In this document: positions 2,262-58,630 of the stretch, in pieces | Numbering within the stretch: position 1 is the stretch's first letter | How the letters are laid out: the number at the start of each line of letters is the position of its first letter | From: a virus | IMG/VR virus record: IMGVR_UViG_3300027861_000034 | Coordinates: 1 to 58,630 of that record | Length of the DNA: 58,630 nucleotides | Reading direction: 5' to 3' (one strand) | Program-made: the position numbers and the translations under genes | The notes under the pieces: generated by a model | Databases searched by the model: none | What the model saw: the letters and a program-made list of their open reading frames with translations, nothing else | Told to the model about the DNA's origin: nothing

Positions 2262-2430
2262 AGAATTCGTAAGAGCCACCTGTCCCGATTGTACTTTGAG
2301 TGGTTTTCAAATAGAACTTTTTGAATCGGCAATAAAGAATAATCGCCAAATAACTATTGGTGGTAGGAGAAGTGGTGTTTCGTTTTTGAAAAAGAAATAT
2401 ATAAAATGGATAGAGGAGGTAGTGGAATGA
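2242..2430 (+). CDS. hypothetical protein (62 aa)
   Basis: The ATG at 2242 with GGGGAG upstream is preferred to the longer frame from 2176. The gene overlaps the end of the initiator in another frame. The product has a CPDC pair and a basic segment IGGRRSG, with no recognised domain. It lies between initiator and loader genes, so a replication accessory role is possible but not shown. Confidence 0.55.
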   Translation: MMKMTFKEFVRATCPDCTLSGFQIELFESAIKNNRQITIGGRRSGVSFLKKKYIKWIEEVVE

Positions 2431-3416
2431 GAAATTTAAAATATTATAAATCAGAAAAAGGACTCTACATAACCCAAGTGGTTAAGTGGAGCGGAAACGT
2501 AGCATTTTCAGAATCAACTAAAATTAATGGAAAGAAATGGAGCCCAACCACATCTAAAAGTTGGGTATTTGTTGATGGCGAAAGTGAAATCCTAAAGATT
2601 GAAGATTTAGGACAGTCGAAGAGAACCAATTGTCGATACGAATTGACAAATAAGGATTTGGTTAGCGATAAGATTCCTCTAGTCATAATGGAAGATGACT
2701 TAGAGACAGAAGAATGTGAAGATTATGGAGATGATATTTGGGTTGGGAAATACGCAGGGTTGAATTCAATGTATGAGTTCAAGTACGACATTCAAAAGAG
2801 GGAATATGAATCTGTTGAGTTCGAAGCTGAGATTGTCGGGGAAATAGTTGGTGAGTTTAGTAGCAACCCAATCGATGCTAGATACGGACTAAATTACGAC
2901 AGAAAACAAACCGAAAAATGTCTAACAGATTTAATCCAATATGAAGAATTTGAGAGATTTATGACTCCCGAATTTGGGTTGCAACATCGCCCTTGTTATA
3001 TTTCTTCTGTGAATACATACAAAATGGTGAGAAGTTATATCAAAAATAATATTGATCCTGCTGTTGCCGAAATAACAAGTGATTATGATTTTTGTTTCAC
3101 TGTCAAAAAGAAAATAAGAATCAACCCATACGTTACTAAAAGAGAAATAACAAAAACTAATGGGAAGAGTTACGCAAAACCTAGATTCAAGGAGTGGACA
3201 ACCACCCACGAGAAAAAAGAAATCTTCGAGATGACAGATAAGAAGCGATGTTATCAAGGCTACACTCCGATTGATGGTTTTAGTGGGAACAACATCTACG
3301 ACCTAAAAGAGAATGTCGATTTGTTTTTTAAGGAATTGATGTTAGTTATAAATGAACCGTTGATGGCATGTGAATGTTGCAACGGAAGTGGGATTGTTAA
3401 GGAGAACAATAAATGA
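2427..3416 (+). CDS. hypothetical protein with C-terminal CxxCxGxG motif (329 aa)
   Basis: GAGGAGG at 2414-2420 places the start at 2427. The body is rich in charged residues and shows no domain I recognise. The last 15 residues hold CECCNGSG, a DnaJ-type zinc motif seen as a single copy at the ends of many phage proteins. The stop overlaps the start of the helicase-loader gene, so the two are probably coupled in translation. Confidence 0.65.
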   Translation: MRNLKYYKSEKGLYITQVVKWSGNVAFSESTKINGKKWSPTTSKSWVFVDGESEILKIEDLGQSKRTNCRYELTNKDLVSDKIPLVIMEDDLETEECEDYGDDIWVGKYAGLNSMYEFKYDIQKREYESVEFEAEIVGEIVGEFSSNPIDARYGLNYDRKQTEKCLTDLIQYEEFERFMTPEFGLQHRPCYISSVNTYKMVRSYIKNNIDPAVAEITSDYDFCFTVKKKIRINPYVTKREITKTNGKSYAKPRFKEWTTTHEKKEIFEMTDKKRCYQGYTPIDGFSGNNIYDLKENVDLFFKELMLVINEPLMACECCNGSGIVKENNK

Positions 3417-14556: not shown

Positions 14557-14688
14557 ATGCGGTGTTTAACAATCAAGCCTAGATGTCAGTATAATTTTAA
14601 AGGTGAGTGTTGTAAAGGTTCAAAGAAGCAAAAAGAACTTTCAGTTTTAGCTAGAAAATTGAGGAACAAAAAAAGAGGTAAGGTATGA
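14557..14688 (+). CDS. small basic Cys-rich protein (43 aa)
   Basis: GAGGTGAATT before ATG. Four cysteines (residues 3, 10, 18, 19) precede a strongly basic tail. Possibly nucleic-acid binding. It overlaps the next start by four bases. Confidence 0.5.
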   Translation: MRCLTIKPRCQYNFKGECCKGSKKQKELSVLARKLRNKKRGKV

Positions 14689-14855
14689 AACTTGTGAAAG
14701 GTAAAAAATACAGATTCAAATATCAAGATGAGGAGCTTATATATATAGGCTATAACTTTAGTGGTAATGGATTTTGGCATCAGTTTACGAAAAAAGGAAA
14801 GGTCTAGAGTGAGTTACTAGATTCAGATCTTCACATAATTGAAGATGATGTTTAA
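14685..14855 (+). pseudogene. small gene with in-frame amber codon
   Basis: The frame from ATG 14685 reads 40 residues to TAG at 14805-14807 and then stays open for 15 more codons (SELLDSDLHIIEDDV) to TAA at 14855. The downstream part looks like the natural acidic end of the protein, and TGG to TAG would restore it (KVW-SELLDSD). It is either a truncated product, a nonsense mutation or suppressed amber. Confidence 0.55.
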
Positions 14856-51759: not shown

Positions 51760-53412
51760 ATGAGTAATTTACAGGATTTTAGTGTTGAGCAAATAACAAA
51801 GGCAAGTAAGGAATTTTTGCCGACGTTGGATTTGGGTAGTGGTACAGCTATTGAGTTAGCAAGTAAGGTACGGGCTAATTTGAAGTTTAAGCCATTTACA
51901 GAGCAGTCATTGGTGCAATGGATAGAAGCTGGTGGCAAGGAAAGTGAGAAGCCTAAGCCACAAGATAAGAGTCAAGACGATACACCTTTTGACGATACTC
52001 CAGCACCACAGTCACAAACTAAGAAACCTCATGCAAGTGAGAAGCCTCAGAGCGATAAGGCTAAAGAAGTTGAGCAGAAAATGCAGGAAGCTATGAAGGC
52101 TATGCAAGAGGCAATGGAGGAAAAGCATGAACAAGAGTCTCAAAAGCAATCTCAAGAGGAAGCTGATGAGCGGTACGTATTGCAAGATGATTACAATGTA
52201 GATAAAGAAAAGATTGCTACTGAATTTGAGTCTATTGATCAAGACTTAGAGGAATTGTGTACAGCTGTAGACAAAGTTACTGAACAAATCAAATCTATTG
52301 ACAAGTCAGTAAAGAAAATTGAGATTGTAACTCCCGAACAACCTAAGCCAGTTGATGTAGGCGTAGCTCACTGGACTGTACCGGTGATAAGTAAGGCGGT
52401 ATATAAAGGCGTGCACCTAACCTTAGTAGGGCCAGCTGGTAGTGGTAAGACAACGGCATGTCACCAAGTAGCACAAGGTTTGGAGATGGACTATCACCCA
52501 ATGTCAGTAGGGCCACAAACTACAAAGTCTGATTTGATGGGATACAAGGACGCTCACGGTGTGTACCATGATACTCCAGTAAGAAAGGCATTTGAGCACG
52601 GTGGCTTATTGCTACTAGATGAGATGGATTCTGCTAATGCTGGTGTACTTACTATTCTGAATAGTTTACTGGCTAATGGACTATGCTCATTCCCCGATAA
52701 GACTGTTGATATGCACAAAGATTTCCGCTGTATCACGGCCTGTAATACGTTTGGAAGGGGCGCAGATAGGATGTATGTAGGTCGTAATCAGTTGGATGCG
52801 GCGACTTTGGATAGGTTCGGAGTGCTGGATTTTGACTATGACGAAGCCTTAGAAGCTATTATAATCGGTGTTCAACCTAAGGAAGCTCAAAAGGAATGGA
52901 AGTTTCAGAAGACACGTACAGTCTCAAGTGAGGAATGGTTGGCTCGTGTTCAACACTACCGTAAACGTGCCGGAGAATTGAAGCAACGTATGGTTATCAG
53001 TCCAAGAGCAGTGATCAACGGTAACAAGCTATTGGATATGGTGCTTACTGTTGGTGATGTCGAAGATATATGTGTGTTCAAAGGTGTTGATAATGAGATT
53101 AAACGTAAGCTCAAAGAGGGTTTTAAGTTTGATGATGGTAAGAAAAAGAAAACACCTAAATCGAAAGCCGATGCTGGCGGTGGTAATGGTGTGTGGATTG
53201 AGCACAAAGGTGGTAAGATGCCGGTGAGTGGGGACACGTTGGTTGATATAAGATTTGCTGATGAAAGTGATAGGTCAACCGACCAAGGTAAACAAGCTAG
53301 AAATTGGAGTTGGCGTTGGAGTGGTACACCTAGAGATAGCAATATTACAGCTTACCGTATATCACTACCTAAGACTGTTGAGAAAACAGAGGATGATCCG
53401 TTCGACTTCTGA
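51760..53412 (+). CDS. AAA+ ATPase, MoxR/CbbQ-like (550 aa)
   Basis: A Lys/Gln-rich coiled N-terminal part (1-190) precedes an AAA_5-type domain: Walker A GPAGSGKT (224-231), Walker B LLLLDEMD (283-290), sensor 1 in ACNTFGRG (about 327-334) and an arginine in LDRFG. MoxR-type ATPases remodel protein complexes together with a VWA partner, and the next gene may be that partner. After the DDPFDF stop (TGA at 53410) the same frame runs on for 27 codons to a TAA at 53496. An internal palindrome lies at 52257-52272. Confidence 0.85.
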   Translation: MSNLQDFSVEQITKASKEFLPTLDLGSGTAIELASKVRANLKFKPFTEQSLVQWIEAGGKESEKPKPQDKSQDDTPFDDTPAPQSQTKKPHASEKPQSDKAKEVEQKMQEAMKAMQEAMEEKHEQESQKQSQEEADERYVLQDDYNVDKEKIATEFESIDQDLEELCTAVDKVTEQIKSIDKSVKKIEIVTPEQPKPVDVGVAHWTVPVISKAVYKGVHLTLVGPAGSGKTTACHQVAQGLEMDYHPMSVGPQTTKSDLMGYKDAHGVYHDTPVRKAFEHGGLLLLDEMDSANAGVLTILNSLLANGLCSFPDKTVDMHKDFRCITACNTFGRGADRMYVGRNQLDAATLDRFGVLDFDYDEALEAIIIGVQPKEAQKEWKFQKTRTVSSEEWLARVQHYRKRAGELKQRMVISPRAVINGNKLLDMVLTVGDVEDICVFKGVDNEIKRKLKEGFKFDDGKKKKTPKSKADAGGGNGVWIEHKGGKMPVSGDTLVDIRFADESDRSTDQGKQARNWSWRWSGTPRDSNITAYRISLPKTVEKTEDDPFDF

Positions 53413-53496
53413 AGGCGTGAATATGAGTACTCTTTTGATACTGCTGAAGATAAGTGGTATCAAGAGTTTGAGGCTAGACAAGATAAATACAAGTAA
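53413..53496 (+). other. in-frame open extension after the AAA+ stop
   Basis: 27 codons following TGA read RREYEYSFDTAEDKWYQEFE and end KYK before TAA. The composition is protein-like, and the next palindromic site begins three bases after this TAA, the spacing seen after genuine stops elsewhere in the operon. No ATG, GTG or TTG start lies in this frame. Confidence 0.5.
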
Positions 53497-54942: not shown

Positions 54943-55209
54943 ATGTTGTATGATCTAAAGAAGTTGAGGCGTAGACTAGGTATCAAGGTACCGGAGATAG
55001 TAGAGAAATTTAACCTACATAACAGACAGATAGTGTACTACTGGGAACGCAAGAAGCAGTATCCGGAGTACGTCAAGGAGTGGATGGATAAGAAAGAGGA
55101 CGATATGAAAGCCTTCAATAATAAGGCTTCACTTAGAGCAATTGACGAGAGACTAAAACGATTAGAAAAAAAGATAGGAGGTTCAGATGTTTCGACCACT
55201 GAGAAGTAA
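54943..55209 (+). CDS. small HTH protein with coiled-coil tail (88 aa)
   Basis: AAGGAGGAATAG before ATG. Residues 2-40 (LKKLRRRLGIKVPEIVEKFN then IVYYWERKKQYP) form a Cro/YdaS-like helix-turn-helix; a coiled coil follows. It is a good candidate for an early regulator, and for the protein that reads the palindromes. It overlaps the annealing-protein gene by 23 bases. Confidence 0.65.
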   Translation: MLYDLKKLRRRLGIKVPEIVEKFNLHNRQIVYYWERKKQYPEYVKEWMDKKEDDMKAFNNKASLRAIDERLKRLEKKIGGSDVSTTEK

Positions 55210-55666
55210 TGAGATAGAATGTAGGGTTCAATCAGTAAAGGCTAACGGGTTTGTAATGTTGCTATACAAGGACGCTCGATGCGATATGTCTATACTTGAT
55301 GAGACAGTCGGCCCACTCAATTGGATGCGCTCACATTCAAGGGAAAACGCTAACTGTACTGTGTCTATATTTAACAAAGAGATAGGGCAATGGATAGGCA
55401 AGGAGGATACAGGTACTAAATCCAACACCGAAGCTGAGAAAGGTATGGCTTCTGACTCGTTCAAAAGGGCGTGTTTTAATTGGGGTATAGGCCGTGAATT
55501 ATATACAGCTCCATTCGTTTGGATTAATCAGATGCAATATGTCAAGAACGGTAAGGTTTATGAGAAGTTTTCAGTAGCTCACTTGGCTGTTGAGAATGGA
55601 GAGATAACACAGTTGGCTATAGCTGATAGTCGTGGAACAGTAATCTATAAATACAATTGCCAGTAA
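55187..55666 (+). CDS. Rad52-type single-strand annealing protein (159 aa)
   Basis: The Rad52/22 N-terminal fold is recognisable: VQSVKANGFVMLLYKDARCD, then WMRSHSRENANCTVSIFNKE, GTKSNTEAEKGMASDSFKRA and FNWGIGRELYTAPFVWI. It would anneal complementary single strands produced by the YqaJ exonuclease encoded downstream. GGAGG lies six bases upstream of the ATG. Confidence 0.87.
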   Translation: MFRPLRSNEIECRVQSVKANGFVMLLYKDARCDMSILDETVGPLNWMRSHSRENANCTVSIFNKEIGQWIGKEDTGTKSNTEAEKGMASDSFKRACFNWGIGRELYTAPFVWINQMQYVKNGKVYEKFSVAHLAVENGEITQLAIADSRGTVIYKYNCQ

Positions 55667-56047: not shown

Positions 56048-56097
56048 GTTTGAGGGTAAATAATAGGTCAGTTAGACCGCAAAAATGGAGAAGAGAA

Positions 56098-57006
56098 ATG
56101 AGTAAAGATAGACTAGAGTGGTTGGAGAATCGCAAGAAGGGTGTTGGTGGTTCTGAGATAGCAAGTATATGTGGGCTGAGCAAGTGGGCTACACCTAAAG
56201 ATGTATGGGATAGTAAGCTGGGTAACGTGCCTGTATCAGATGAAATGACTACGGCTCAATTGTTTGGTACATTGGCTGAGCCTATAATCGTTGAGATGTT
56301 TGAGCGTAAAACAGGGCTACACGTAACGACAGGATGTGATCAAGTTACTGATGCTAATTACCATTATATGCTGGCTAACGTGGATGGTATCATTGCGAGT
56401 GAGGGTTGCATCTTTGAGGCTAAGACTGCATCTGCATTTATGGCTGGTGATTGGGGAACTGAAGATACAGAAGAGATTCCTATCGGTTACTACCTACAAG
56501 TCCAACACTATATGGGCGTGCTGAACATGAACAAGGCGTATGTAGCGGTGTTGATCGGTAACGCTGACTTCAGAGTATATACTATCCAAAGAGATGATAC
56601 AGTTATCAAGCGTATTAGATTGGCTTGTAAGACGTTTTGGGAGGACTTCGTAGAAAAGAAGGTACAACCTCCACTTACTGTAGATGAGACTATTAGCGAG
56701 GCTTGCAACGTAATACAGGGCGCAATCATTCATACTACTCCATTGGTAGAGGTAGCACTATCTGATCTTAAGGAGTTGAAGGCTCAAGAGAAGGTTCTTA
56801 AAGCTGACATCAAAGACCAAGAGAATATTGTTAAGGCTCACATTGGAGAGAATGAGATACTAGTCAACGCTGATGGTGGTACGCTGGCAACGTGGAAACA
56901 GTCAGTATCAAATAGGTTTGACTCAAAGGTGTTCAAGAGTGACAACCCCGAAACATATAATCAATACTGCTTTGAATCTGCATCCCGTAGATTCCTAGTT
57001 AAATAA
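56098..57006 (+). CDS. YqaJ-family exonuclease / viral recombinase (302 aa)
   Basis: A PD-(D/E)xK nuclease, starting at 56098 after GGAGAAGAGAA. Motifs: VGGSEIASICGLSKW near the start, GTLAEPIIVEMFERKTG with E61, ANVDG with D96, and FEAKTAS with E107 and K109. It digests one strand of double-stranded ends; with the annealing protein it forms a Red/RecET-like pair. The C-terminal ~100 residues are helical. Confidence 0.9.
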   Translation: MSKDRLEWLENRKKGVGGSEIASICGLSKWATPKDVWDSKLGNVPVSDEMTTAQLFGTLAEPIIVEMFERKTGLHVTTGCDQVTDANYHYMLANVDGIIASEGCIFEAKTASAFMAGDWGTEDTEEIPIGYYLQVQHYMGVLNMNKAYVAVLIGNADFRVYTIQRDDTVIKRIRLACKTFWEDFVEKKVQPPLTVDETISEACNVIQGAIIHTTPLVEVALSDLKELKAQEKVLKADIKDQENIVKAHIGENEILVNADGGTLATWKQSVSNRFDSKVFKSDNPETYNQYCFESASRRFLVK

Positions 57007-57436: not shown

Positions 57437-57634
57437 ATGGTAACAGTATCAGAGGTAATGGCAGAGAAAGCAGTGTTGGAACTAAGAGTATCAGCATTGG
57501 CAAAGGTATCGGGTGATAAGCGTAAGGTGTTGACAGCTAACGAGAAGCGAGCACTAGGGGTTATCCTTAGTGAAGAGTCAGCTAAGCTAGAGTCATACAT
57601 GGGAACACAACTAACAGTAGCAGAGGTGGTATAA
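57437..57634 (+). CDS. hypothetical protein (65 aa)
   Basis: AGGAGAGTAGAGAG before ATG. Helical with a conserved-looking KRALGVILSEESAKLESY segment. The stop overlaps the SSB-like start (TAATG), implying coupled expression. Confidence 0.55.
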   Translation: MVTVSEVMAEKAVLELRVSALAKVSGDKRKVLTANEKRALGVILSEESAKLESYMGTQLTVAEVV

Positions 57635-58041
57635 TGGAACAGGAACAAAAGGTTTGGGTCGGTGGTATCTTCTTTAAGAAGCACACGTTCTCTAATGGTG
57701 GGTCACAGATTAAGGCATGGAGTCCTAACGTAGATGAGTTATGCGCTTGGCTACAGGCTAACAAGAAGGCTGATGGTACTATCGCTTTTAATGTCGGTGG
57801 CAGTAAGGTTCCTCGTATGGACGATAAGGGTAATGAGAAGCTGAACGCAAGCCTAGACACTTGGGAGCCAGCAGGAGGGGGGCAAGCTCAACAGCAGTTT
57901 GGTCAAGCACCTCAACAGCCTATTCAGACTCCGGCTCCACAGCAAGGGTATCAGCAAGCACCACAAGGGCAGTCTGCACCACCACAATATCAGCAAGGTG
58001 TAGCTCCACAATATGCTCCGCCCCAAACCCCACAAGGTTGA
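57634..58041 (+). CDS. SSB-like protein, stops short of its acidic tail
   Basis: A folded N-terminal domain of ~75 residues (GGIFFKKHTFSNGGSQIKAW start, KLNASLDTWEP end) is followed by a Gln/Pro-rich flexible linker, the layout of single-strand binding proteins. The frame stops at TGA (58039-58041), yet the next 15 in-frame codons end in DDDIIPF, nearly the E. coli SSB tip DDDIPF. Without the tail it would bind DNA but not recruit partners. Location beside annealing and exonuclease genes supports the role. Either TGA is read through, or it is a mutation or error. Confidence 0.65.
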   Translation: MEQEQKVWVGGIFFKKHTFSNGGSQIKAWSPNVDELCAWLQANKKADGTIAFNVGGSKVPRMDDKGNEKLNASLDTWEPAGGGQAQQQFGQAPQQPIQTPAPQQGYQQAPQGQSAPPQYQQGVAPQYAPPQTPQG

Positions 58042-58089
58042 CTCACTGATGTGGCTACAGATGTAGACGATGATATTATACCTTTTTAG
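58042..58089 (+). other. in-frame SSB-type acidic tail beyond the stop
   Basis: Reads LTDVATDVDDDIIPF then TAG (58087-58089), in the frame of the SSB-like gene. A palindrome-like site (58053-58068, one mismatch) overlaps it. Two direct repeats AGTCCGGTAACT / AGTCCGATAACT follow at 58088 and 58129. Confidence 0.65.
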
Positions 58090-58249
58090 TCCGGTAACTC
58101 ATTATACTGAGCAGTAATTAACAACAGGCAGTCCGATAACTAGTCCGTTTGAGGGCTGTCTTAATTCAATAGAGATAGAGATTATGGAATGTCACGGTTG
58201 AGTTTAAGACATTTAAGCAAAGAGAAATTTTAAAACAAATGAGGTAGAA

Positions 58250-58441
58250 ATGATACCATTTGAGAGAGATATGGAGCATAAGGTAAGCGAGGTTATATGT
58301 GTTCAGTGTTCGACTCGTTGGATATGTGTAAGGCCGACAGATGTGCAACTCAAAGACATTGAATGTCAGAATTGTGGTTGTGGGTATGTAGTTGAAACAG
58401 GGCAAGATATAAAAAGAGAATGCAGTGTGTGGAAAGGCTGA
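58250..58441 (+). CDS. zinc-ribbon protein (63 aa)
   Basis: GAGGTAGAA before ATG. CVQC (18-21) and CQNCGC (40-45) form a zinc ribbon. Another frame overlapping the 3' end (from GTG 58425 to TAA 58499) reads CGKAELF and CAECWEVFNP, possibly a lost or shifted extension. Confidence 0.6.
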   Translation: MIPFERDMEHKVSEVICVQCSTRWICVRPTDVQLKDIECQNCGCGYVVETGQDIKRECSVWKG

Positions 58442-58503
58442 ACTATTCGATAACGATGTCGATATATGCGCAGAGTGTTGGGAAGTATTTAATCCGTAAA
58501 ACC

Positions 58504-58630
58504 AACAATGAGGTGATATAATGTTAAGACCATGCCCGTTTTGTGGGAGTAAAGCAAACCTGTACGAGACAGAAGGGAAAGACTGGGTTGTTGAGTGCAC
58601 AGGTAGGAAATGCGAAGTATTACTTTTTGA
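58504..58630. repeat. 127-bp repeat, terminal copy
   Basis: Identical to 16212-16338 and ending exactly at the last base of the window. Its length equals a k-mer size widely used in assembly, so it may mark a graph junction rather than a real duplication. Confidence 0.95.
58521..58630 (+). CDS. Lar-like zinc-finger protein, cut by the window end
   Basis: The first 36 codons of the Lar-like gene, identical to those at 16229. The rest is beyond the window, or is the copy at 16229 if part B is circular. Confidence 0.8.
   Translation, partial: MLRPCPFCGSKANLYETEGKDWVVECTGRKCEVLLF

Follow-up and report, generated by a model that had tools for sequence, protein, structure and literature searches.

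An in-frame TGA before the acidic tail of a putative SSB-like gene in a metagenomic phage: probable nonsense mutation or consensus error

When the frame of a small phage gene closes at a TGA and the acidic tail expected of a single-stranded DNA-binding protein (SSB) is encoded immediately beyond it, is the stop a device for limiting the supply of tails, or has it interrupted a gene that was until recently whole? The question arises near the end of the window, the term used here for the entire 58,630-base IMG/VR virus record (classed as linear) that was analysed. A product of 135 aa is encoded by the open reading frame at 57634-58041 (+), which closes at TGA 58039-58041; beyond it the zero frame continues for 15 codons, LTDVATDVDDDIIPF, to TAG 58087-58089, as re-translation confirmed for the layout given in the initial annotation. 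Read by eye, the ATG at 57634 overlaps the stop codon of the preceding gene and has a plausible ribosome-binding site 5′ of it. Two small genes lie between the RecE-like exonuclease gene and the SSB-like gene, and 541 bases separate the latter from the end of the record. Elsewhere in the window, a zinc-ribbon-like ORF at 58250-58499 ends at TGA 58439-58441, just beyond which another frame reads ...LFDNDVDICAECWEVFNP, possibly reflecting a frameshift or a separate tiny gene; the record closes just as a Lar-like restriction alleviation gene begins (58522-58630; phrog_599, E 9.2e-6); and 2406-3416 strongly matches Gad1, the Gabija anti-defence protein (PF25705, E 1.1e-68).

Table 1. Parts of the SSB-like gene and two genes upstream of it in the window.
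Feature	Position	Strand	Basis
N-terminal core, ~79-81 aa, ending LDTWEP; proposed ssDNA-binding domain	57634..57870	+	Common to IMG/VR relatives L101, L102, L103 and L104; profile match
Gly/Gln/Pro/Ala-rich linker, ~56 codons, akin to the disordered SSB linker	57871..58038	+	Translation
In-frame TGA, next base C, between linker and tip	58039..58041	+	Sequence; no counterpart in relatives
Acidic tail LTDVATDVDDDIIPF, zero frame, SSB-type tip	58042..58086	+	Translation, chance tests, coding score
TAG stop, immediately 3′ of tip	58087..58089	+	Translation
Erf-like ssDNA annealing protein, upstream, same gene run	55187..55666	+	phrog_14970, E 4.1e-66; phrog_1097, E 2e-18
RecE-like exonuclease (YqaJ domain), upstream, same gene run	56050..57006	+	phrog_434, E 1.8e-86; PF09588, E 1.5e-28

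The tail after the TGA is non-random. A tip pattern, defined as a segment that ends in PF with at least three acidic residues among the seven preceding, had a single occurrence in the 7,211 stop-ended segments that the window contains: the tail of the 57634 gene. Second-order Markov copies of the window (n = 60) averaged 0.067 occurrences of the loose pattern each and contained no instance of the strict one. The 102 other fetched phage loci (984,045 bases, some overlapping) yielded 40,058 segments of 8-39 aa between stops, none with such an ending. When scored as phage coding sequence, with codon weights taken from 30 window genes, the 15 codons reached 8.4 bits. This places them at percentile 68 among 745 coding windows; of 326 open windows that are off frame, 0.9% score as high. 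Such a score is by itself weak evidence, and more weight rests on the tip pattern. From the uniqueness of the tip, the Markov copies, the other loci and the codon usage we conclude that the 15 codons were translated as the end of the protein until recently, or still are. A frameshift in place of read-through was rejected, since the tail needs no change of frame and reading in +1 ends a few codons past the TGA with no acidic tip. A scan of the window for coding continuations listed six sites, four of them unconvincing, and missed the TGA at 58039, probably because of the low score of the linker. As a separate observation, the AAA ATPase in the 51760-53496 region ends ...TEDDPFDF at TGA 53410-53412. 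Beyond this stop the frame stays open for 27 codons up to a TAA; the stretch is coding-like (18.4 bits) and lacks a start codon, and none of the fetched loci gave a homologue of it.

No model in Pfam, PHROG or NCBIfam matched the N-terminal core. A search at protein level of the 50 records from which other loci derive returned a single match (E 5.5e-4), a protein of 87 aa including Met that ends SADAPF (L101) and lies in a record, that of L006, which also carries an Erf and a RecE-like gene. Used as a query, this protein identified L102, L103 and L104, of 95 aa each, among which the tips read KDDGLPF and KDDNLPF; next to L104 lie genes for an exonuclease VIII-like protein and a primase/helicase. 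In all four the PF tip is joined to the core with no intervening stop. The number of distinct relatives is counted as three, as the proteins of L103 and L104 are identical and L099 and L101 belong to a single record. All are remote from the window protein (24-28% identity) and their linkers span about 15-25 residues, compared with about 56 codons in the window gene; the motif LxAN...G...DK...LDTWxP is common to the family core.

A profile built from L101, L102 and L104, with the window left out, ranked the window ORF first among 881 segments (E 2.6e-4; next E 3), and the true core scored 17.4 bits against at most 8.8 bits for 2,000 shuffles. This profile is partly circular because resemblance to the window is what brought L101 in; L102 and L104, which are 81% alike, did not enter in that way, and single-sequence searches with these two also placed the window ORF at the top (E 0.061 and 0.44). 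Two AlphaFold models of the core were of low confidence (pLDDT 67 and 52), too weak to name a fold, whether OB or another, and gave no Foldseek match at E≤0.001. In VIA, the low-confidence models reached a best Z of 3.0 over 45 residues, and the HU proteins and Pur-alpha repeat at Z 2.0-2.5 are not counted as evidence. Outside the L101-L104 family, a small ORF near an Erf gene (L074, 5151-5423; 90 aa stop-to-stop) ends SEEGPF.

Closer relatives were not detected by blastn or tblastn among phages or plasmids, nor by peptide-pattern searches of viral_contigs and genome_contigs, and a profile search of 398 genomes from one phylum had no matches. The L101 protein matched nothing among phages by tblastn and nothing in 37 further records, while tblastn of the L104 protein against phages gave only three archaeal-virus matches at E ~1. 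Possible relatives in L002, MT836084 and Molivia were inspected and dropped; L092, a 13-residue match, was searched with the family profile and likewise not kept. A degenerate pattern guess matched six loci, none of them a relative. A literature search found no paper on this small SSB-like family, from which absence from print is not claimed.

The canonical SSB domain, the OB-domain model PF00436, had no match in the window record at E≤1, a test that was positive in 12 of 14 control genomes. A Pfam search with the 135-aa protein found neither PF00436 nor any other match. None of the four records of the relatives contained the domain, although these may be fragments and cannot prove its absence; for comparison, a canonical SSB lay within the examined flank of 48 of 80 Erf loci. 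The tip, the linker, the neighbourhood and the missing PF00436 together suggest a stand-in for SSB. In E. coli the SSB tip is DDDIPF. The window gene follows the layout of E. coli SSB: a proposed DNA-binding domain (PF00436 in E. coli), then a flexible linker, then an acidic tip that finishes with PF. Like bacterial SSB genes it adjoins recombination genes; it differs from bacterial SSB in that its core of about 80 aa has no PF00436 match and its tip lies beyond a TGA. PMC7145534 gives E. coli SSB a 56-residue linker and a 9-residue partner-binding tip. With the L101-L104 proteins (87-95 aa) the window gene shares a homologous core, the LDTWxP end, the PF tip and a record with no canonical SSB, but these proteins are uninterrupted and have far shorter linkers.

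Judged from sequence comparison, the protein of 57634-58089 probably belongs to a small SSB-like family that replaces SSB and has no model in the searched libraries. Binding of ssDNA by the core and recruitment of partners by the tip are proposed as its functions. The initial annotation had called the gene SSB-like and its post-TGA peptide an acidic tail of SSB type; both descriptions held, the first though not by way of the usual SSB domain, and a tip of this type also closes the proteins that share the N-terminal domain. What seems to be new beyond that annotation is the small family itself, unmodelled in the searched libraries and apparently replacing SSB.

We consider a nonsense mutation or a consensus error to be the probable cause of TGA 58039-58041, and favour it over functional read-through. 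Under this proposal 57634-58089 would be one gene, encoding a putative ssDNA-binding domain of about 80 residues joined through a long, flexible linker to an acidic C-terminal tip, and its product would take the role of canonical SSB beside the phage annealing protein and the RecE-like exonuclease. The TGA is most likely of recent origin, whether the sampled virus acquired it by nonsense mutation or the metagenomic consensus is in error at this codon, and would not be a dedicated switch. If it is real in the virus, most of the product would lack the tip and fail to recruit tip-binding partners, and ordinary leakage at UGA-C would still yield a little full-length protein.

The simple alternative of mutation or sequencing error, which the initial annotation had set beside its own proposal, is favoured above all by a second in-frame stop in the record that homologues lack; the ordinary use of TGA as a stop in other genes and the position of the gene close to the record end also count for it. 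TAG 14805-14807 breaks a small gene at 14685-14852, which matches phrog_30689 across the stop (E 6.9e-13); all four aligned homologues, from Shewanella phage 1/41 and the Acinetobacter phages WCHABP12, HFM1 and vB_Ab_01_KEN_01, have Trp at this position and read on. The alignment used four of the nine matched records, several of the nine being duplicates. As this TAG breaks an unrelated gene, the SSB-like gene is not the only one in the record to carry a nonsense codon. None of ten conserved phage genes scanned against PHROGs was broken, which indicates that the record is not error-ridden. Counting against mutation or error are the perfect keeping of the tail, which functional read-through would also predict, and the description of UGA-C as a poor terminator in PMC12421855.

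Functional read-through is unlikely, though it is the reading that the initial annotation had put forward. It would have a fixed low fraction of ribosomes decode UGA-C as an amino acid, giving mostly tail-less and a little full-length protein, so that an oligomer on ssDNA would bear few tips and recruitment of tip-binding partners would be limited. The UGA at 58039 is followed by C, so that a weak termination context is present, and UGAC ranks as the very weakest termination signal. This context is nevertheless weak evidence for leakage, because 170 of the window's 1,343 + strand TGA have C as the next base. Both the tail and its TAG are intact, as read-through would predict. UGA is described as the leakiest bacterial stop, at 10^-2 to 10^-3 at least (PMC4989110), TGAC as terminating poorly (PMC12421855), the A1 protein of Q-beta as made by UGA read-through about once in 15 (PMC8067240), and conserved in-frame stops in bacterial genes are argued to be read through (PMC7918605). 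The window case is like Q-beta coat/A1 in that a UGA separates the main product from an in-frame C-terminal extension; it is unlike it in that Q-beta is an RNA phage whose extension is long, folded and a demonstrated product, whereas here the extension would be a tail of only 15 residues.

Against read-through, a stop before the tip occurs in none of the three distinct relatives, all remote; the RNA at 58030-58110 is no more stably folded than its shuffled versions (z 0.48); and the gene at 14685-14852 is broken by an in-frame stop as well. With relatives uninterrupted, the RNA fold ordinary, no tRNA encoded in the window and a second broken gene in the record, the regulated read-through of the initial annotation was not supported. 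At the TGA itself, where that annotation had called for an alignment of homologues, the three distinct relatives are uninterrupted, but no codon of theirs aligns with TGA 58039 because they are remote and have shorter linkers. Homologues that end at the TGA and lack a tail, the refuting outcome named in that annotation, were looked for and not found. A fuller version of the idea, which we regard as quite improbable, is that constant read-through of UGA-C sets the tip-bearing share, so that the ssDNA coat would be mostly tip-less and ignore host partners while a few tips recruit them, within a small SSB-like family that replaces canonical SSB.

General suppression, in which phage or host would read some UGA and UAG as tryptophan and all interrupted genes would yield full-length products, is very unlikely. 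It would account for the position of TAG 14805 at the Trp of the homologues and for the coding-like codons, with no in-frame start, that follow the ATPase at TGA 53410, but TGG is used normally (138 codons in 30 genes), many genes end at TGA or TAG with ordinary overlaps, no tRNA gene is encoded in the window and only two or three such interrupted sites occur in 58.6 kb. An alternative code with UGA as a sense codon was rejected on the same TGG count and on the several genes that end at TGA in ATGA-type overlaps, and selenocysteine was set aside, the predicted RNA fold around TGA 58039 showing nothing unusual. That the 135-aa protein, a complete ORF with its own stop, is the whole natural product and the next 15 codons a chance or decayed remnant is scarcely credible given the absence of such a tip from the 40,058 short segments elsewhere, the homologues that keep the tip joined to the core and the phage-like codon usage of the tail.

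The more likely nonsense reading of TGA 58039-58041 is a caution on stop codons that are seen in single records of metagenomic phages. If the TGA were functional, the gene would be a simple natural case in which translation adjusts the number of SSB tails. If the proposed SSB role is true, phages carry a compact substitute for SSB that has no model in the searched libraries and still uses the tip recognised by the host, in which case a single recruitment code would be shared through convergence or very distant relationship.
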